Below are positions 1,635-57,659 of a stretch of 64,000 nucleotides of DNA, one piece after another. The notes below the pieces were generated by a model, which worked only from the letters and a program-made list of their open reading frames with translations, made no database searches and had not been told where the DNA came from. The DNA comes from Anaerofustis stercorihominis (GTDB lineage Bacteria > Bacillota > Clostridia > Eubacteriales > Anaerofustaceae): assembly GCA_015058295.1 (NCBI GenBank), contig SVCP01000003.1:1060-65059 (forward strand), given 5' to 3'. Both the position numbers and the translations under genes were made by a program. Each line of letters starts with the position of its first letter. Within the stretch, counting starts at the first letter, position 1.

Positions 1635-2204
1635 ATGAACAAGACATTAAAAAAAGTATGGGATGGAGTAACTACAATTCTCGTTATATGTATTGCGGTA
1701 CTTGCGGTTTTGCTTGCAGGTCCGAGGCTTATGGGAATGCAGGTTCTCACTGTGCTTTCAGGTTCGATGGAGCCTGTATATCATGTCGGTTCTCTCATTT
1801 ATGTGAAAGATGTTGATCCGTTCACTCTGAAAGAAGGAGACGTGATCACATATATGCTCAGCGAAGATACGTTGTCAACGCATCGTATTGTGGGAGTTGT
1901 TCCCGACGAGGAAGACACGAGCGTTATTCGTTTCAGAACGAAGGGGGACGCGAACGACGCTGAGGATGCTACACTTGTGCATTATAAGAATGTTGTGGGC
2001 ACACCTGTGTTTACGATTCCGTATCTCGGATATATTGCGAATTACATCCAGCACCCGCCGGGAACATATATGGCGATTGCGGCAGGTGCGGTGTTCCTGA
2101 TTCTTGTGTTCTTGCCTGATTTGTTCGATGACGAAGATGAAGGCCAGAAGAAGAAGGGCAAAAAAGGCAGCAAAACGGATGATGCCGAGCAGGATGATAA
2201 TTAG
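1635..2204 (+). CDS. sipW: Signal peptidase I, SipW/ER type
   Basis: VLSGSMEPVYHVGSLIYV (catalytic Ser region), STHRIVGVV, RTKGDAND; N- and C-terminal TM segments. Start at 1635 preferred over the longer ORF at 1539. Confidence 0.88.
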   Translation: MNKTLKKVWDGVTTILVICIAVLAVLLAGPRLMGMQVLTVLSGSMEPVYHVGSLIYVKDVDPFTLKEGDVITYMLSEDTLSTHRIVGVVPDEEDTSVIRFRTKGDANDAEDATLVHYKNVVGTPVFTIPYLGYIANYIQHPPGTYMAIAAGAVFLILVFLPDLFDDEDEGQKKKGKKGSKTDDAEQDDN

Positions 2205-2380
2205 GACAGAACAGTAAATTTATCTGATATAGTACAGAGTTTTCTTCGGGGCGAGTGCTAAGCCGGAGAAAGCAGGGAAAGTAACTGTCCGGGTTTTGGT
2301 TGGTCGCAGGGTATGGTTATGTTGGTTTGAGAAACACAATCCCCGCCCGCCGCCCGTTTTAATGCAAGGCTTCGCCTTGC

Positions 2381-2457
2381 GAGGAATCACTGCGTGATGA
2401 TGGGACAATCCCTCCCTGAACGGCGGTGCCGTTCTTTCCCTCCCTTACTAAGGGCGG
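2381..2457 (+). repeat. 77-bp hairpin-rich direct repeat, copy 2
   Basis: Near-identical to 1214-1290. Confidence 0.9.
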
Positions 2458-2555
2458 CGCGTCGAAACAGCTTTGATTTACTACGAAATACCCTGAAGGG
2501 CATTTCTCCGCTTATATAGCTGTTTCTCCTTTGTCGCCAAAATGGGATTTTGGCG
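2457..2555. repeat. Structured element (cgtcgaaacagcttt...agctgtttctcc + tcgccaaaatgggattttggcga), copy 1
   Basis: Homologous to 44191-44294 with paired changes in the stem. Confidence 0.75.
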
Positions 2556-2700
2556 AAATTGCGACACTGTGTGTCGCCGGGTCGCCTGCGGCGATACCCT
2601 CTCAGTCAGCTTACGCTGACAGCTCTCCCAGAGGACGAGCCTATACTTGTATATAACACCGAGAGGTTTTATATAAATATTAAAGAAAGGAGAAAATAAT

Positions 2701-3450
2701 ATGAAGACAAGAAACAAAGCGATTCTTACAGCGGTATGTGCTGTTTTGTTGGTTGTTATGTCTGTAATGGGCACAATGGCATATCTTACAGATAAAGATG
2801 CGGTTGTAAATACTTTCACTGTAGGTAAAGTTGGACTTAGTCTTGATGAAGCCAAAGTTGATAAACTTGGTAACCTTCTTAATAAAGACGGAGACATTTA
2901 CGTTGAGGGTGATGAACTCGCTGAACGTGTGAAAGAAAATGTGTATCATCTTCTTCCGGGACATACATATGTAAAAGACCCGACAGTAACTGTTGATGCC
3001 GGCAGTGAAGAATGCTTCGTAAGAATGTTCGTTAAAGTGGAAAACATGGAAGCTCTTACAGGTCCGCTTGCAGGTAAAGATGGTTTCTGGCAGGGAGATT
3101 TATTCCTCCTTCAGGCACTTTGCGGTGGCTGGGATCAGTCAGTATGGGCTTGTGTAGGTCTTGTTGACAATACTAACAACATTTACGAATTCCGTTACAA
3201 AGAAGCTGTTGCTAAATCTGCAGATGCAACAACACTTCCGGCATTGTTCACAAGCATTACACTTCCGGGTGAATACTTCGGAAACGATGATATGGTTTCT
3301 GTAGAAGCTGACGAAGAAGCAGGTACAGAAGCTAAAGTTGGTCTTGATGCTGTGGCTATCAAAGTTTATGCACAGGCTATGCAGGCTGACGGATTCGAAG
3401 ATGATGTAGAAGGTGCTTGGACAGCTGCCGGTATGCCGCAGTTCAATTAG
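2701..3450 (+). CDS. SipW-dependent TasA/camelysin-like secreted protein 1
   Basis: MKTRNKAILTAVCAVLLVVMSVMGTMAYLTDKDAVVNTFTVG: SipW-type signal with GT-AY-T-D...N-FT motif; good RBS. Confidence 0.85.
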   Translation: MKTRNKAILTAVCAVLLVVMSVMGTMAYLTDKDAVVNTFTVGKVGLSLDEAKVDKLGNLLNKDGDIYVEGDELAERVKENVYHLLPGHTYVKDPTVTVDAGSEECFVRMFVKVENMEALTGPLAGKDGFWQGDLFLLQALCGGWDQSVWACVGLVDNTNNIYEFRYKEAVAKSADATTLPALFTSITLPGEYFGNDDMVSVEADEEAGTEAKVGLDAVAIKVYAQAMQADGFEDDVEGAWTAAGMPQFN

Positions 3451-3478
3451 TCTTTATTCATATGAAAGGTAGAAAAGT

Positions 3479-4123
3479 ATGAAAAAAGCTAAGAAAATTA
3501 CATTTGTATTGATTCTCGTTGCAGTTGCAGTATGTGTTGTAGGAACGACGCTTGCGTGGTTGCAGGACAGTGAGGGTCCCGTTGTGAATACTTTCACACC
3601 GAGTAATGTTAAGATTGACCTTGACGAAACTCAGACAGAGCGTGAATTTAAAATGGTACCGGGCTGGACTATTGCGAAAGAACCGTATGTTACTGTAGAA
3701 GCAGGAAGCGAAGATTGTTTTGTATTTATTGAAGTTATTAAATCAGATAATCTTGATGAATACATTGATTATGCAATCGTTGCAGATGATCCGGATACAG
3801 AAGCATTTGAAGGCTGGAGAGCACTTGAAGGTAATGAAGGTGTTTACTACAGAACAGTCAAAGATATTGCAAGCAATCAGGAATTCGGAATCCTTGCAGG
3901 CGGTTCAAACGAAGATATGGAAGGTTTTGCACCGTTCACATGGACAGCAGATCAGGTTCTTGTAAAACCGACAGTTACAGAAAAGATGATGGAGGATCTC
4001 GCAACAGAGGGCAATCCCACATTATCTTTCAAGGCATATGCGGTACAGTTGTGGAAAAACAACACAGAAGAATTTAAGCCCGAAGAAGCATGGGCAATCG
4101 CAAAACCGGTGGTGACACCGTAA
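3479..4123 (+). CDS. SipW-dependent TasA/camelysin-like secreted protein 2
   Basis: MKKAKKITFVLILVAVAVCVVGTTLAWLQDSEGPVVNTFTPSNV. Confidence 0.85.
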   Translation: MKKAKKITFVLILVAVAVCVVGTTLAWLQDSEGPVVNTFTPSNVKIDLDETQTEREFKMVPGWTIAKEPYVTVEAGSEDCFVFIEVIKSDNLDEYIDYAIVADDPDTEAFEGWRALEGNEGVYYRTVKDIASNQEFGILAGGSNEDMEGFAPFTWTADQVLVKPTVTEKMMEDLATEGNPTLSFKAYAVQLWKNNTEEFKPEEAWAIAKPVVTP

Positions 4124-4133
4124 TTATTAAGGT

Positions 4134-4161
4134 ATAAACGACGATGATCAGGTCGTTTGTA
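4134..4161 (+). terminator. Intercistronic hairpin (possible attenuator)
   Basis: aaacgac-gatgatca-ggtcgttt; weak U-tract. Confidence 0.4.
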
Positions 4162-4199
4162 TAAATGAAAATTTATATTTCGAAAGGAAAACAAAAGAA

Positions 4200-5039
4200 A
4201 TGAAAAAGAAAACATTGGCAATCGTTCTGGTTGTATGTCTTCTCGCTACAGCTCTTGTAAGCGGAACACTCGCATACTTCACAGATAAAGATGGCGCTGA
4301 GAACGTATTCACAGTTGGTAACGTTTCTATCATTCAGGATGAAACCAACGAAAAAGGCGAAGAATTTGTAGATAATCAGAAACTGTTCCCGTATACAGGC
4401 GACGGTACAGATAAAGATGAAAATAAGATTATCGTTAATGGTGACTACTGCACAAACGAAGGCGTTATGGATCCGGCAGACAACTGGATCAGCAAAATCG
4501 TTACAGTTAAGAACAATGGTTCTGAAGATGCATACGTTCGTACACTCTTTGCGTTCCAGATCCTTAAAGATGCTGAAGGCAAAGATATTATCGCTGCTGA
4601 CCCTGCAACAGGCGACCTTGCTTACAGAGCAAAACATGGTCTTATGTATGATTTGTATCAGGCTGCTGGTAGCATTAATTTTGCAAAAGATGCTAATGGT
4701 GCTTATCTTAAATATACAGATGCTAATGGCGTTGAATACATTGTTGGCGAATACCTCTATAAGATGGATCTTGGCAATGGTAAGTACGATTCTATGCTTA
4801 AGGCTGGTGAAAGATCACATGCGAGCCTTAAGAGCGTTGCTCTTGAAAGCTATGTTGACAATGAAGTTGCAGCTCTCTACAAAGACTATAAGATTCTCGT
4901 AGTATCTCAGGCTGTTCAGACAAAAGGCTTCACAGATGCTAACGGCAATGGCGTAGTTGCAGACGATGCTCTCAATGAAGCATTTGGTGCAGCTACTGAA
5001 TCTGCAAAATATGCTGAATGGTTTAAAATTGCACAGTAA
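4200..5039 (+). CDS. SipW-dependent TasA/camelysin-like secreted protein 3
   Basis: MKKKTLAIVLVVCLLATALVSGTLAYFTDKDGAENVFTVGNVSI. Confidence 0.88.
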   Translation: MKKKTLAIVLVVCLLATALVSGTLAYFTDKDGAENVFTVGNVSIIQDETNEKGEEFVDNQKLFPYTGDGTDKDENKIIVNGDYCTNEGVMDPADNWISKIVTVKNNGSEDAYVRTLFAFQILKDAEGKDIIAADPATGDLAYRAKHGLMYDLYQAAGSINFAKDANGAYLKYTDANGVEYIVGEYLYKMDLGNGKYDSMLKAGERSHASLKSVALESYVDNEVAALYKDYKILVVSQAVQTKGFTDANGNGVVADDALNEAFGAATESAKYAEWFKIAQ

Positions 5040-5059
5040 TTAATTAAAAATTACATACA

Positions 5060-5124
5060 GCCCTCTCTTTGAGAGGGCATATGAGAGTGGCCGGAGGGGA
5101 TTTCCTTTCGGATATTCTCATATG
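5060..5124 (+). other. Two intercistronic stem-loops
   Basis: gccctctctttgagagggc, then catatgaga...tctcatatg enclosing ggccggaggggatttcctttc. Confidence 0.6.
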
Positions 5125-5204
5125 AGAGAAAAAGTGTGGAAATTTAACTATTTTGTATAACATATTTTAAGAAAACTTGTTTAAAAACAGGAAAGGGGAA
5201 AAGT

Positions 5205-5798
5205 ATGAAGAAGAAAATACTTGTTTTATCGCTGATTCTGCTGTTTTTCACGGTAGCTGTCGGCGGAACTCTCGCCTATTTCAACGCGGAGGACGAAGCG
5301 CACAACGTCATCACATCCGGCGGAATCGACATCGACCTGCAGGAATGGGCGGACGAAGACATGACGATTCCTTACGACGAAGCGCATCCGGAAGGATTCG
5401 TTGAAGTCATGCCGGGAACGAAGGTTGGAAAGGTTGTTGTGGTTGAAAACCTCGAGCAGCCGGCGTGGATCAGAGCAGATTACACGATCACAATCGAAAA
5501 AGACGGCAAAATTCTGGACATTGACGCATCTGAGCTTGCGAAAATCGTGAAAATCCAAGAAGGCGCAGGCTGGGTCGAAAAAGACGGAATGTATTATTAC
5601 GACGAAGCTGTGGAAACAGGGGCAAAAACGGAACCTTTGTTCACGGTTGTGGAATTCGACGGCGTGAGCATGGGCAACGAATACCAGAACTGCACGTTTA
5701 CCATCGACGTCTATGCGGAAGCGGTGCAGGCGGCAAATAATCCGGAAAAACTGGGCTGGGATCAGGGAAAACTCCCGCCGGTGCAGGAAATCAAGTAG
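5205..5798 (+). CDS. SipW-dependent TasA/camelysin-like secreted protein 4
   Basis: MKKKILVLSLILLFFTVAVGGTLAYFNAEDEAHNVITSGGIDIDL. Confidence 0.87.
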   Translation: MKKKILVLSLILLFFTVAVGGTLAYFNAEDEAHNVITSGGIDIDLQEWADEDMTIPYDEAHPEGFVEVMPGTKVGKVVVVENLEQPAWIRADYTITIEKDGKILDIDASELAKIVKIQEGAGWVEKDGMYYYDEAVETGAKTEPLFTVVEFDGVSMGNEYQNCTFTIDVYAEAVQAANNPEKLGWDQGKLPPVQEIK

Positions 5799-5808
5799 GG
5801 GGTAGGCT

Positions 5809-8800
5809 ATGAGAAAGAAATTAATTGCTGTTGTTCTTGTGGTGCTGGCAGTTCTTGCTGTGATGCCGAGTGCGATGGGGGCGACGGATTTTAAAACTGC
5901 ATATGCTAATTCTACCAAAGCAACTGACAGCACGAGTATGTATGGTGAATATATATTAAATGGGAATGTCGAAATAGATTATATCATTCATATTCCGGCA
6001 GGAAAAACATTGAAAATTACCGGAAGTGGAACAATAAAAAGAGGGTCTCTGTTAAAGGCTAAGGGGCTTGATATTTTTCAGCTTGAGTCCGGTTCTAAAC
6101 TGATTATTGGTGAAAAGGATGTAAACAGTACTAAAAAAGATAAAATTGTTATTGATGGGGAAGATGTTGTCGTTCACAGACCATTGATTCTTGCTTACAA
6201 TGGCGGAGATGTTGAACTTAATCATGTTACTCTGAAAAATAACAGAAACAGAGCCACAGCGCAAAATCCTGCAGGTAATTCTTTTTCTGGAGGTGCCATA
6301 TTCATAGCTCCGAGTTATAAAACGGTCAATAAGGTTACAACCGTTGATCGCTTACCTTCACTTTCCCTTTATTCATGTTCAATACAGGATTGTACATCCT
6401 ATTCATACGGTGGTGGTATATACAGCTCTGGGTGCGACATAAATCTTATAAACTCTGAAATTTTGCGATGTAATGCTGTAGGTGGGTTGTATAGTACTAG
6501 TCAAAACACAAATTTAGGGCAGGGTATATTGGAAACCAACGAAGGTCCGTATAAAGGTTCCTATTGGGCTGATCGTGGAGCCGGTGGCGGTATCAAACTT
6601 GCAGGTATCCCATCTTATAATCTGAGACCAACATGCACTATCACAAATTCAAACATATCATACAATACAGCGGTAGGTTACGGTGGCGGCGTTGAGATAA
6701 ACAGTGGTGCTTCTGTTGTGATGAATTCAGGTTCGATGAATAACAATACATCTCTTAACAGAGGGGCAGGAGCATTGCATGTAACTGCTGATGCATCATT
6801 TACTATGAATGGCGGTGAGATGAAGAATAATGTCTGCTATGAAGTAGGCGGCGCTATTCATACATCATATACATGTGTACTCAATCTTAATGCAGGTGTT
6901 ATTGAGAATAATATCGCTTACGGACGTGGTGGCGGTGTCCATATCGATGTAGGCGGAGATTTGGTATTGAATGGTACTGATATTATAAACAATGAAGCAA
7001 GAGATAGCGTCGTTGTTTTGGATAAAGATTCTCAGAGTGAAGTTACTCATACCGAAATAGGTGTTTCAAATATAGTAGGTGGCGTATACACAGATGATAT
7101 AGGTAAGACTTTAAGTAAACCGATATGGCTTGGAAATGCGCAATTCCGCGGCGATGCAGGATATGGCGGCGGTGTACTTATTGACTGTGGAACATGTACA
7201 TTAAATAAAGGAACGATTTCTGGAAATAAAGCGGATATTGGCGGTGGCGGATTATGTTTTGTAATGTTGCTTATAAGCGCTGATAACCGATTTGGTCAGA
7301 CAAGTGCGTGCGCTTTTGAAATGAACGATGGTATTATCACTGAAAACTATGCCGGTGAAATGGGCGGCGGTGTATACCTTATGAAGAATGTTCTTACAGT
7401 AGAGAATATTGCTGAGGCAAACAACCTGGAATATAAAGAAGAAGCCGGTGGGTATCAGTTTTATAAGGATGATGGAACGAAATTTGATATGCTTAAAGCT
7501 GATGGAACAATTTGTACTCCGGCAGAAATAAAAGCGATCATTGATGAAATTCCTGAGGTTGAAATTAAAGGTGGAACTGTAAGTAACAACGATGCAGGTG
7601 AAAAGGGCGGAGCTTTTTATCTTGAAGAAAGTACAATCTTCACAATCAATGGCGGAACAGTTACAGAAAATGAAGCTGTTGACGGCGGTGCTGTTTATGT
7701 AGCTGAAGGTACAGCTAACATTGATGGCGGAACAATTATCAAGAATAATGCAACCAATGATGGCGGTGCCCTTTATGTAAAAGGGATCGTAAATATGACA
7801 GATGGATCTGTTACTGAAAATACAGCAACAGGTAATGGCGGTGCTCTTTACATTGCAGACGGCGAAAACGTAGATGCTGACTTCACAATGGCAAACGGTT
7901 CAATGACCAAAAACATAGCCGCTCTGAATGGCGGTGCGGCATATGTTTCCGGCGGTAACGTTATGATTACTCATGGTACGCTTGATGCAAACGAAGCTGT
8001 CAACGGTGGGGCTGTATATATGGCAGGTGATGCCGACACCACACTTAAAATGGAAAGCGGATATATGCGCAACAATAAAGCTCTTGGAGTAATCGACAGT
8101 GAAGGCAAAAGAGAGGACGGCACAGGAGACGGCGGTGCAATTTATGCTGAAAACGGAAAACTGTATATCGGACTTGAACACTGTACAGTAAATGATTCGT
8201 TACATGCTACAGGATATAATCACCCTGTTATTACAGGCAACTCGGCTGCAGATTCCGGTGGTGGTATAGCTATCGCAAATGAAGGGGAAGTTTACTTCTA
8301 CTGTGGTGAAGCAACAAGCAATAAGGCACTTTATAAAGGTGTAGGTCTTAACGTATTTATGGACGGTGGGACATTCAACCTTTATGACGGTGCAAATATC
8401 GGTGTTCCGAGAGACCCGGATCTTGTAATTATCGGTGGTACGCTGAACAATATGTGTCAGGAAACAAATTATGTGAATCTGTACTATTATATGAAGAATA
8501 CGGATACGGATACTTCTATGGTTGGATTGGCACAGTATGAAGAGTTGATGAATCTTCCGGACGGAGAGTATTTCTGGCCGAAATATGCTGAAGAAAATAA
8601 CTTTGTGTTCCTCGGCTGGACGGCAAAAGGTGCGGCTTCCGGTGAAGCTGATGAATATGTAAGAAACAAAGAACAGTATGTAAATTCGGGTGAACCGGTG
8701 CAGATTCTGGATGAAACAACTCCTGAAACAGACCAGACAAGCATCAACACAAACAGATTGTTTGACGGAACACCAGACAAGACGATACATTTATATGCTT

Positions 8801-9540
8801 TGTGGGCACCGAAAACAAGCACGATAAAATATGTTGACGGACTGACAGGCGATGAACTTGAGCTTGATCCGACAACATATGACTTTACAAGAGAAAGCAA
8901 TGTTCTCGATATCGGACCTGTTCCGAAAGCAGGATATGACCTGATGGGATGGTATATCTTCCAGGATGCAGATCAGAACGCAAACTGGAACGAAACTCTG
9001 AATGATGAAAGCTACGAACCGAGAGAAGCAACGAATTACGAAGGACTTAAATATCTGGAATTGAAAGACAGAAACGGTGTTTTAGAGCTTGAAGCAGGGC
9101 TGACAAACTTCGGATACATCACGCTGATTGCGAAATATGTTCCGGCATACACAGACCTTATCATCGACAAGGCTCTTGAAACAGGCTCAAAACTCGATGC
9201 AAATCAGATGTTTATGTTCAGGATTGTGGGAGATCCTTCGAATGAGGCTCTCAAAGATGTCGATATGATCGTTACGGTTAACGGTGACGGACAGACAACG
9301 GTTAAAGCTTTGCCTGTAGGAACATATACGGTTACGGAAATCGAAAACTGGAGCTGGAGATATACAAAAACGAATGTTGACCAAACAATGCCGATGAATC
9401 TTGCTGATTCGGAAGTTGATTACAAAGTAACCTTCACAAACAAACTCTCCAACCCCTTCTGGCTCTCAGGCGACAGCTATGTGAAGAACTCGTGGAAGAC
9501 GGGAATAGCAACGGATTTTGCCGGAAAACCGATTAATTAA
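5809..9540 (+). CDS. Giant secreted surface protein: parallel beta-helix/polymorphic-type repeats, InlB-like repeats, Cna-B/pilin-like C-terminal domain
   Basis: Signal peptide; repeated GG(A/G)(V/I/L)Y...NGGT...NNxA units; GYDLMGWY and LYALWAPK (InlB-like); MFRIVGD...TVTEIENWSWRY pilin-like domain; C-term NPFWLSGDSYVKNSWKT. Confidence 0.85.
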   Translation: MRKKLIAVVLVVLAVLAVMPSAMGATDFKTAYANSTKATDSTSMYGEYILNGNVEIDYIIHIPAGKTLKITGSGTIKRGSLLKAKGLDIFQLESGSKLIIGEKDVNSTKKDKIVIDGEDVVVHRPLILAYNGGDVELNHVTLKNNRNRATAQNPAGNSFSGGAIFIAPSYKTVNKVTTVDRLPSLSLYSCSIQDCTSYSYGGGIYSSGCDINLINSEILRCNAVGGLYSTSQNTNLGQGILETNEGPYKGSYWADRGAGGGIKLAGIPSYNLRPTCTITNSNISYNTAVGYGGGVEINSGASVVMNSGSMNNNTSLNRGAGALHVTADASFTMNGGEMKNNVCYEVGGAIHTSYTCVLNLNAGVIENNIAYGRGGGVHIDVGGDLVLNGTDIINNEARDSVVVLDKDSQSEVTHTEIGVSNIVGGVYTDDIGKTLSKPIWLGNAQFRGDAGYGGGVLIDCGTCTLNKGTISGNKADIGGGGLCFVMLLISADNRFGQTSACAFEMNDGIITENYAGEMGGGVYLMKNVLTVENIAEANNLEYKEEAGGYQFYKDDGTKFDMLKADGTICTPAEIKAIIDEIPEVEIKGGTVSNNDAGEKGGAFYLEESTIFTINGGTVTENEAVDGGAVYVAEGTANIDGGTIIKNNATNDGGALYVKGIVNMTDGSVTENTATGNGGALYIADGENVDADFTMANGSMTKNIAALNGGAAYVSGGNVMITHGTLDANEAVNGGAVYMAGDADTTLKMESGYMRNNKALGVIDSEGKREDGTGDGGAIYAENGKLYIGLEHCTVNDSLHATGYNHPVITGNSAADSGGGIAIANEGEVYFYCGEATSNKALYKGVGLNVFMDGGTFNLYDGANIGVPRDPDLVIIGGTLNNMCQETNYVNLYYYMKNTDTDTSMVGLAQYEELMNLPDGEYFWPKYAEENNFVFLGWTAKGAASGEADEYVRNKEQYVNSGEPVQILDETTPETDQTSINTNRLFDGTPDKTIHLYALWAPKTSTIKYVDGLTGDELELDPTTYDFTRESNVLDIGPVPKAGYDLMGWYIFQDADQNANWNETLNDESYEPREATNYEGLKYLELKDRNGVLELEAGLTNFGYITLIAKYVPAYTDLIIDKALETGSKLDANQMFMFRIVGDPSNEALKDVDMIVTVNGDGQTTVKALPVGTYTVTEIENWSWRYTKTNVDQTMPMNLADSEVDYKVTFTNKLSNPFWLSGDSYVKNSWKTGIATDFAGKPIN

Positions 9541-9552
9541 GGAGGCGCGAAG

Positions 9553-10158
9553 ATGAAAAAGACGAAAATCAAAGCAATTTCGCTGATGATCTGCCTTCTT
9601 ATGGTGGTTGGCGTGGTTGTCGGCGGAACGGTTGCATTCCTCATGGATGCAAGCGATGAGGTTGAGAATACATTTACTCCTTCAGAAGTAACGACGGATG
9701 TTGTTGAAGATACAGATTCGTTTGAAAATGAAGGAATCAAGAAAGATGTTGTAATCAAAAACACAGGAGACACGGACGCATTCATCAGAGCAGCGATCGT
9801 TGTTACATGGCAGGATGAACAGGGCAATGTTTACGGACAGAAGCCGGTTCCGGGAACGGATTACGAAATCTTGCTGAATGTTGATACAAAAGACAAGGAA
9901 GATGATGACAATAATTCGTGGATTCTTGGAAATGACGGATTCTATTATCACAAGGAAGCGGTTGCAGGAAACAACGATGCAACAGAAGTTCTGATAAATT
10001 CCTGCACAAGCAAAAACACCGAACCGGATTCAAACTACAAACTTTGCGTTGAGATCCTTGGCAGCGGAATCCAGAGTGTTCCGGAGGAAGTTGTTGAGAA
10101 TGTATGGGGCGTAACTGTTGAAAATGGTGTAATTACAGTAGGAGGAGGTAATCAGTAA
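9553..10158 (+). CDS. SipW-dependent TasA/camelysin-like secreted protein 5
   Basis: MKKTKIKAISLMICLLMVVGVVVGGTVAFLMDASDEVENTFTPSEV. Confidence 0.85.
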   Translation: MKKTKIKAISLMICLLMVVGVVVGGTVAFLMDASDEVENTFTPSEVTTDVVEDTDSFENEGIKKDVVIKNTGDTDAFIRAAIVVTWQDEQGNVYGQKPVPGTDYEILLNVDTKDKEDDDNNSWILGNDGFYYHKEAVAGNNDATEVLINSCTSKNTEPDSNYKLCVEILGSGIQSVPEEVVENVWGVTVENGVITVGGGNQ

Positions 10159-11117
10159 TGAAAAATATTAGAAAGATCTCCTCAATTCTGATGGTTATGA
10201 TGCTGATACTCAGCATGGGAAGCGTTTTTGCGGCGGAATCAACGGTTACATTCAAGGGACTTGAAGAAGGATTTGTTTTCGCACCGGGAAGCGGATACAC
10301 GGACACGGATCTTTTCGACGGGTTCAAGAATGTTATGCCCGGTGACAAGCTGACGGAAGAGATAGTTGTTGTGAACGATACAGAGGACTGCGATTTTATC
10401 AATGTTTACATGAAAGCTGTCGCTCACGACGAAGAAGAAAACCCGCTGACATATGACGAAGCATATGAAAATCTTGACGGCAAAGATCAGGCGAAGGTTG
10501 AAGGCACAAGAGATGAAACTGTTGCGACAATGGAAGATTTCCTGGCGCAGTTGAGTCTTAAAGTTTACAACGGAGCTGAGCTTATCGAAGAAAGCGATCT
10601 TTCCGACTTTGTATATCTCGGAACGCTTGTGAACGGCGAAGATCTGAAACTTAATGTTGAGCTTGAAGTGCCGATCACGATGGGAAATGAGTATGCGAAC
10701 AGAGTCGGTGAAGTTGACTGGGTATTCCATGCGGAAGCGATACAGTTTGATACACTTACTGTAAAGAAAGTATGGGATGACGATAACAGCAAGGACAGAC
10801 CTGAATCAGTTAAAGTAAATCTTCTCGGTGACGGTGAAGTTGTTGAAACGGTAGTTCTCAGTGATGAAAATGACTGGACGTATACATGGGAAACACTCGA
10901 TGACAGATATACATGGAGTGTGGAAGAAGTCGTTCCGAAGGATTACAGTGTTTCATACAGAGTGAACGGTGAAGTTGTTACGATCACGAACACAACGACA
11001 CTCATCTTCACAGGACAGGTAGACTGGCCGGTATATGTTCTTGGAACACTTGGTGTAATGATGATGTTCCTGGGAATAATTATCATGAGAAAAAAGAAAG
11101 AGAATGAAAATGTCTAA
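10158..11117 (+). CDS. Cell-wall-anchored surface protein with Cna-B domain and LIFTGQVDWP sorting-like signal
   Basis: Signal peptide; TVKKVWDDDNSKDRPESVKVNLLGDGE Cna-B; C-term LIFTGQVDWPVYVLGTLGVMMMFLGIIIMRKKK. Confidence 0.82.
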   Translation: MKNIRKISSILMVMMLILSMGSVFAAESTVTFKGLEEGFVFAPGSGYTDTDLFDGFKNVMPGDKLTEEIVVVNDTEDCDFINVYMKAVAHDEEENPLTYDEAYENLDGKDQAKVEGTRDETVATMEDFLAQLSLKVYNGAELIEESDLSDFVYLGTLVNGEDLKLNVELEVPITMGNEYANRVGEVDWVFHAEAIQFDTLTVKKVWDDDNSKDRPESVKVNLLGDGEVVETVVLSDENDWTYTWETLDDRYTWSVEEVVPKDYSVSYRVNGEVVTITNTTTLIFTGQVDWPVYVLGTLGVMMMFLGIIIMRKKKENENV

Positions 11118-11694
11118 GAAAGCAGGCATTGCATTCATAATAACGGGGGCAGTGCTGATGATATCGGCACTGCTTCTTTGGTATTCGAATGTAGCGGAAG
11201 ATAATCGTGCGGCTGAGGAAGCCGGAAATGTAATGGAGATAATCCGCCCGATAATAACGGATAAGGTGGAAGAGGAGAAAGAGCTTTCTCCGGAGATGCC
11301 GGTAGTGAAGATAGGCAGTTACGGATATATAGGGTATCTGAAGATAGAAGCTATAGATCTGGAGCTTCCGGTAATAGACAGCTGGTCGTATACGAAGTTG
11401 GAGACGGCACCGTGCAGGCATTTCGGATCGTCGAGGACAGATGATCTTGTAATAGCAGGGCATGATTATAAGGCGCATTTCAAGTATCTGTATAAGATAC
11501 CCATCGGAAGCGAGGCGGTATTTACGGATATGGAGAATATACAGAACAGATATGTACTTGAGAAGATATCAAAGGTAAAGCCGGAGGATGTTGAGGCTGT
11601 ACAAAACAGCGGATATGATCTTGTGCTTTACACCTGTACACCGGGTGGTAAAACAAGGACCGTGGGGTTTTTCAATCGCATTCAACAGGATTAG
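11104..11694 (+). CDS. Sortase (class not assigned)
   Basis: N-terminal TM; IAGHDYKAHFKYL (catalytic His) and LVLYTCTPGGKTR (catalytic Cys/Arg). Confidence 0.88.
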   Translation: MKMSKKAGIAFIITGAVLMISALLLWYSNVAEDNRAAEEAGNVMEIIRPIITDKVEEEKELSPEMPVVKIGSYGYIGYLKIEAIDLELPVIDSWSYTKLETAPCRHFGSSRTDDLVIAGHDYKAHFKYLYKIPIGSEAVFTDMENIQNRYVLEKISKVKPEDVEAVQNSGYDLVLYTCTPGGKTRTVGFFNRIQQD

Positions 11695-11732: not shown

Positions 11733-11772
11733 TAGGGCATAGGCTTTTGCGGTGATATGCCCTTTTTTTTAT
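11733..11772 (+). terminator. Intrinsic terminator closing the surface-protein locus
   Basis: agggcata...tatgccct followed by T8. Confidence 0.85.
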
Positions 11773-57397: not shown

Positions 57398-57568
57398 ATC
57401 CCTCAGCAGCACTCCACCTTTTTGGTGACAGTATTACGGCTGTTGACCGTAATACCGAAAAACATACCGGCAAATACACTTCTCTCGGCGGTATACCCTT
57501 TTGTCTTTCTTCTTTTCCGTTTGCCGACGGATCCGCAAGACTACTGATGATGACCGCGCCTCTGACTA
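57398..57568 (-). ncRNA. Lysine riboswitch (L-box) upstream of asd
   Basis: Minus strand: gtcAGAGGcGCGg...AGTAgtc...aaaaGGGtataccGCCGAgagaag...actGTCAccaaaaaggtGGAGtGCTgctga, matching L-box core order. Confidence 0.85.
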
Positions 57569-57659
57569 AAGTTTGTTTGTTGATTATAACACATGCTGTA
57601 AGAAAAATAAAGACCTTTTTTACAGAATTTTCTTTTTTTTATGAAAAAGGGAGACGCTT

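Follow-up and report, generated by a model that had tools for sequence, protein, structure and literature searches.

The window analysed here, a 64,000-nucleotide stretch of Anaerofustis stercorihominis DNA, carries a cluster between positions 1635 and 11694, which encodes a SipW-type signal peptidase, five SipW-type ORFs, a beta-helix protein of 1243 aa, an anchored protein and, last, a sortase, all of them lying where a preliminary description of this DNA had placed them (Table 1). We consider the cluster to be best explained, with a probability of roughly 55%, as the genetic basis of a donor-strand fibre in which one end carries an exchangeable adhesin and the opposite end is a base fixed by the sortase. 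What is new here is the combination of parts, which is related to the known SipW/TasA/BsaA fibre systems. TasA-type fibres are known as biofilm scaffolds made of one or two subunits. If our reading is true, many uncultured gut Clostridia use TasA-type assembly for cell-fixed adhesive pili with interchangeable adhesins, and work on the TasA matrix, on donor-strand pili and on sortase pili becomes linked.

Donor-strand assembly of TasA and its initiation by TapA have been published, and a fibre of this kind has an unfilled groove at one end and a free donor strand at the other (PMC9674648, PMC10151520). In the assembly that we propose, SipW would cut the signals of the five subunits and thereby free an N-terminal donor strand (aromatic-L-x-D...N-x-F-T-x-G), which would then occupy the groove of the subunit that follows. 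At one fibre end, the one closed by TapA in B. subtilis, the large beta-helix protein would fill the free groove with its C-terminal tail, which would serve as a look-alike donor strand, and from this tip position the protein would present its exchangeable adhesive body. At the opposite end, the anchor could accept the last donor strand because its TasA-type domain is devoid of a donor strand, and the co-encoded sortase would join this anchor, with its Cna_B stalk and LIFTG signal, to the wall. We infer from the sortase which of the two fibre ends would face the cell. The model predicts that a donor strand is present at the C-terminus, that the base domain lacks one, that the sortase is specific for the anchor and that expression is controlled by inversion.

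Table 1. Features of the SipW-centred cluster, in window coordinates
Feature	Position	Strand	Evidence
SipW-type signal peptidase, 189 aa	1635..2204	+	TIGR02228 E 6.7e-29, over cut-off; SGSMEP and THR motifs
496-bp gap of dispersed palindromic repeats, with one of two 77-nt direct repeats inside	2205..2700	+	
TasA-like subunit, slot 1 (W1)	2701..3450	+	TIGR04088 over cut-off; profile vs Bacillus TasA 93%; groups with slot-1 proteins
TasA-like subunit, slot 2 (W2)	3479..4123	+	Profile vs W1 99.96%, vs Bacillus TasA 84%; groups with slot-2 proteins
TasA-like subunit, slot 3 (W3)	4200..5039	+	TIGR04088 2e-8; TIGR04090 3.7e-9; profile vs Bacillus TasA 96%
TasA-like subunit, slot 4 (W4), directly 5' of the large protein	5205..5798	+	AF2 model, match to TasA fibre 8aur; clade support 95
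Large protein of beta-helix type (proposed adhesin), with a Cna_B/SpaA-like module at the C-terminus whose tail WLSGDSYVKNSWKTG resembles a donor strand	5809..9540	+	Chlam_PMP repeats, DUF5979
TasA-like subunit, slot 5 (W5), directly 3' of the large protein	9553..10158	+	TIGR04090 2.6e-13, below cut-off; clade support 99
Putative wall anchor with Cna_B (E 1.8e-16) and the sorting signal LIFTGQVDWP; the TasA-type N-domain has neither a SipW signal nor a donor strand	10158..11117	+	
Sortase	11104..11694	+	PF04203 E 4e-12; clade serving base pilins
Intrinsic terminator closing the cluster	11734..11763	+	Hairpin -13 kcal/mol, then T run

The two motifs of the signal peptidase are invariant in its alignment (A1), and the protein is the only TIGR02228 match over the cut-off in its source genome, a 1.83-Mb draft in 91 contigs. 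Parts of the gap that follows sipW have 28 matches in the genome, and the hairpins within it are strong (z -3.2 to -4.8); because these 496 bp of dispersed palindromic repeats separate sipW from W1, there is no clear sign of one transcript running from sipW through the cassette. Tight coupling is seen for the last five genes, with gaps of 10, 12, -1 and -14 nt, and the terminator claimed at 11733 is indeed present behind them, although its z-score is only -1.95 and a simple scanner missed it. Neither the large protein nor the anchor starts with a SipW-type signal peptide; those of both are of the ordinary kind. As a separate observation, the two 77-nt direct repeats (1214-1290 and 2381-2457, 97% identical) lie one on each side of sipW and belong to a dispersed family with about 28 genome matches, which also occurs upstream of the second cassette discussed below; recombination between the two could excise sipW or move cassettes.

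The five ORFs had been described as sharing a SipW-type signal followed by an N-x-[FI]-T motif. The motif occurs in all five (NTFT, NTFT, NVFT, NVIT and NTFT from W1 to W5), and the curated SipW-signal model TIGR04088 is passed by W1, W3 and W4; W2, however, matches neither TIGR04088 nor TIGR04090 and is joined to the group through its profile similarity to W1. The NCBIfam model TIGR04090 ('BsaA family SipW-dependent biofilm matrix protein') matches W5 with 50.3 bits, W3 with 36.7 and W4 with 34.8, all below its curated cut-off of 60 bits, and the subunits are consequently to be regarded as relatives, not members, of the BsaA family. Profiles derived from related loci connect the five subunit families with one another at 98.8-99.96% and with Bacillus TasA at 84-98%. 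Structural models were made for W4 and the anchor, so that the assignment of a TasA-type jelly-roll is based on the model and Foldseek for W4 and on profile comparison for the other four subunits. A PDB search with the slot-4 profile recovered the TasA fibre 8aur at 5.5e-8 and TasA 5of1, with AbpX of archaeal bundling pili as a weak further match. For W4, the AlphaFold model (pLDDT 85.5, with low confidence in residues 21-40, the expected donor strand) likewise had 8aur as its best PDB match (E 3.4e-4, probability 1.00), with modest TM-scores of 0.47/0.41. The TasA-like character ascribed to the five proteins is thus borne out, and on these comparisons they can be assigned to the TasA/BsaA superfamily.

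SipW-centred loci were gathered from a genome collection by an alignment search with SipW, and their ORFs were called on the same strand. Among these loci, the order SipW, slots 1 to 4, large protein, slot 5 and anchor, at times followed by a sortase, recurs in Holdemania and in the families Oscillospiraceae and Lachnospiraceae, and one Christensenellaceae contig holds a portion of it, showing that the arrangement is conserved in related genomes and across many gut bacteria. Among 77 SipW loci, 41 have at least three TasA-like ORFs within 12 kb, 15 combine these with a large protein and an anchor, and four of the 15 also have a sortase; since many contigs end early, these counts are lower bounds. 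A second gene order (L014, L016, L018, L019 and L075) places the large protein first, with slot 5 still next after or adjoining it. The number of genes in slots 1-3 also varies between loci, with slots missing in L030, L059 and L069 and slot 3 occurring up to four times in L050, where four slot-3-like genes in a row suggest that this slot may encode a shaft subunit prone to repetition. A SipW locus of other make-up was observed in the one same-genus genome (L015 in G001), with proteins of 280, 201, 463, 593 and 233 aa followed by one of 825 aa with SPSTG.

A phylogenetic tree of 80 subunits from 19 loci requires only 12 slot changes (the minimum possible being 5, with 49 expected by shuffling) against 74 locus changes. 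Within it, the slot before the large protein resolves as a single clade (support 95), as does the slot after it (support 99, 16 loci). Because the tree groups by slot and not by locus, the subunits represent old, separate lineages, and their origin by recent tandem duplication is ruled out. Such lineages are to be expected if each subunit has its own place in a single structure, and this slot-specific orthology thus supports five distinct roles there.

By profile comparison, the N-terminal domain of the anchor is related to TasA (96%) and to W4 (97%), and its structural model, which is of modest confidence (pLDDT 74, pTM 0.54), has matches to the repeats of Cna B and to TasA. In a profile-profile test against the donor strand, no segment of the anchor family scored above 7.3. 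Two main kinds of anchor can be distinguished: a short one with a TGD-type signal, and one combining Cna_B with L[IE][FQ]TGQxxWP. The type of sortase seen in the window follows all four anchors of the latter kind (window, L030, L032 and L036) and none of the approximately 21 TGD-type anchors, a few of which lie at contig ends; L069, L049 and L094 adjoin a different sortase-like gene. This pairing of the anchor with a sortase of its own is consistent with a fixed base. As a side observation, small LPXTG-anchored proteins lie near sipW in Bacillus-type genomes (L091 10623-11225, L086, L102 and L107), scoring as a set 97.7% against TasA and 98.7% against the Clostridia anchors by profile, such that wall-anchored TasA-type proteins may exist in Bacilli too.

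In the sortase itself, His120, Cys178 and Arg185 occupy invariant columns of alignment A4. A single-sequence search with it found no relatives in the genome contig collection. Of the neighbourhoods of strong relatives of this sortase, 11 were read: nine of them hold a classical pilus cluster, comprising a class C sortase together with a base protein that ends in an LPQTGQLWWPV-like signal, and two contain one giant LPQTG protein. The genome of the window encodes a paralogue (C61, 39% identical) that is likewise situated in a classical pilus cluster (L022 9846-17130, G000:C61), which encodes a 1124-aa LPETG protein, a 475-aa LPSTG backbone, a class C-like sortase, a base protein with LPYTGVLWWPV and a base sortase. 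The window shares the base-protein feature, Cna_B plus a TG-x-x-W-P signal adjoining its sortase, and the anchoring module therefore appears to have been taken over from sortase pili. The locus is free of class C sortases and LPXTG backbone pilins, and a sorting signal is found in none of the five subunits nor in the large protein. A role of the sortase as polymerising enzyme is ruled out by the subunits lacking sorting signals and by the missing class C sortase. In a wide sample of the class, anchor and sortase of this type were co-located in 2 of 18 genomes with an anchor match, a rarity that marks the sortase as an optional part of the system rather than its hallmark.

The large proteins keep a common C-terminus on varying bodies: in pairwise comparison of 25 of them, the last 130 aa are similar in 206 of 300 pairs and the bodies in 30 of 300. 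Body types include the beta-helix (window, L046), DUF7601/DUF5979 stacks (L011), InlB-type repeats (L028, L032), VWA (L030), SpaA (L057) and Cna_B stacks, and we read these bodies as adhesin-like parts set on a common C-terminal foot. The beta-helix protein, to which the preliminary description gave no role, would accordingly be an interchangeable adhesin. The foot ends in ...DWSWRY...WLSGDSYVENRF, a tail similar to the N-terminal end of mature SipW substrates (YLTDTDEVTNTFTVG).

In the profile-profile test, the tail of the large-protein family scored 17.8 against the donor-strand profile, compared with 8.5 for the best of 735 control windows. When the asparagines of single proteins were ranked with a smoothed scoring matrix, the tail Asn came top among all Asn of its own protein in 10 of 21 cases, against an expected 0.29. 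In the large protein of the window it came second of 107; the tail there has Trp at the position of the donor strands' Phe, a difference that counts against the model. Because the tails of the large proteins are mutually homologous, the family-level profile test is the one to trust. The tail could instead be part of the protein's own terminal domain or a motif for another partner, its likeness to donor strands arising from beta-strand composition, an explanation that concerns one step and is compatible with the other readings. The motif is short, and in L011 and L036 the tail does not outscore the other Asn positions, both of which favour this explanation; we nevertheless regard it as somewhat unlikely, given that the family profile exceeds every control and that the tail comes after the Cna_B-like domain and forms the extreme C-terminus.

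Two further alternatives concern the cluster as a whole. It might be a biofilm-matrix operon of the BsaA/TasA kind, in which one or two subunits form released fibres and the others act as chaperones or caps, as TapA and CapP do, with the large protein and the anchor as separate surface proteins and the sortase outside fibre building. In C. perfringens, BsaA polymerises alone, bsaB and bsaC only give better pellicles, and srtB is dispensable for BsaA polymers, the last of these also counting against our model (PMC7395162); the TasA/CalY/CapP system of B. cereus is similarly sortase-independent (PMC13082335). We still judge a matrix operon unlikely in the face of the TasA-type domain in the anchor, the position of W5 directly after the large protein in both gene orders, and a large protein that itself carries neither a sorting signal nor a membrane anchor, yet retains a conserved donor-like tail. 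That the five subunits instead build at least two separate fibres, or act at different times, with the conserved order reflecting co-regulation, would agree with the variable number of slots 1-3 in L050, L030, L059 and L069, but is distinctly improbable when slot 4, the large protein, slot 5 and the anchor are strictly ordered and tightly coupled across families.

The locus had been said to go beyond the classical operon, which is correct relative to Bacillus; from C. perfringens, however, sipW-bsaABCRSD with a neighbouring srtB has already been described (PMC7395162). This is the closest known system: it shares SipW and BsaA-type secreted subunits, with polymerisation seen there and the window known from its genes, together with a nearby sortase gene, and its bimodal expression may be a further likeness. 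The published description, however, reports neither a large exchangeable protein with a donor-like tail nor a TasA-type domain in an anchor, and, besides its dispensable srtB, the system it differs in being regulated by a two-component system (PMC7395162). The B. subtilis tapA-sipW-tasA operon resembles the window, as judged from genes, in SipW processing, the TasA jelly-roll, the N-terminal donor strand and an accessory giver of the first strand (PMC9674648, PMC10151520), whereas it has one major subunit, TapA in place of a large adhesin, and neither a sortase nor a wall-anchored TasA-type protein. In B. cereus, TasA-CalY-CapP similarly comprises more than one SipW-processed TasA-like subunit, there forming heteropolymeric filaments, but CapP is chaperone-like rather than an adhesin or anchored base (PMC13082335).

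Classical sortase pili of the Spa/RrgB type have in common with the window the adhesin-type VWA and Cna_B domains, a base protein with Cna_B and TG-x-x-W-P, and the same sortase clade; unlike them, the window has no LPXTG backbone pilin, no class C polymerising sortase and no sorting signals on its subunits. Chaperone-usher pili and archaeal bundling pili, the latter represented by the weak AbpX match of W4, would share the donor-strand principle, but the window encodes no usher or periplasmic chaperone, and its tip protein would donate a strand rather than accept one. No published description of the arrangement was found in a search of open-access journal papers.

The same genome contains a second cassette (L011 9465-17632) in the same order, whose slot counterparts are 47-71% identical to those of the window and whose large protein is wholly different; it is without sipW and without sortase. 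A third cassette is partial, being cut by a contig end (L012 1-5451), and the single SipW presumably serves all cassettes of the genome. Directly 5' of the second cassette lies a tyrosine recombinase (PF00589; L011 8009-9465, G000:C23:18008-19464), followed by 22-nt perfect inverted repeats 259 bp apart and then slot 1. All eight loci with this type of recombinase (L011, L028, L033, L035, L036, L044, L057 and L066) have inverted repeats with the core ACATAAT-N4-ATTATGT, which are 13-24 nt long, 228-319 bp apart and located upstream of sipW or slot 1, with shorter perfect arms in L036; in a control with random pieces, arms of at least 17 nt occurred in 4 of 1840. In the window's genome, the repeat site of the second cassette is confined to these two inverted copies, and the segment between them showed no strong promoter. 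This segment is probably an invertible promoter and would act as a phase switch, a probable device for phase variation that is conserved among SipW fibre loci. For the window's own cassette, an adjoining inversion switch was rejected, with no inverted repeat in 1145-2720 and a recombinase of that type only at the second cassette.

Extending the donor-strand model beyond this locus, we tentatively propose, as a possibility rather than a probability, a new class of Gram-positive adhesive pili with a TasA-type donor-strand shaft of five ordered and specialised subunits, an exchangeable giant adhesin docked by a C-terminal donor strand, an anchor and sortase derived from sortase pili, and several versions per genome, some of them phase-variable by DNA inversion. 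The genome additionally encodes a lone SipW-type protein of 380 aa (L013 8312-9454), and the window a lysine riboswitch (RF00168, 94.5 bits) on the minus strand at 57399-57572.
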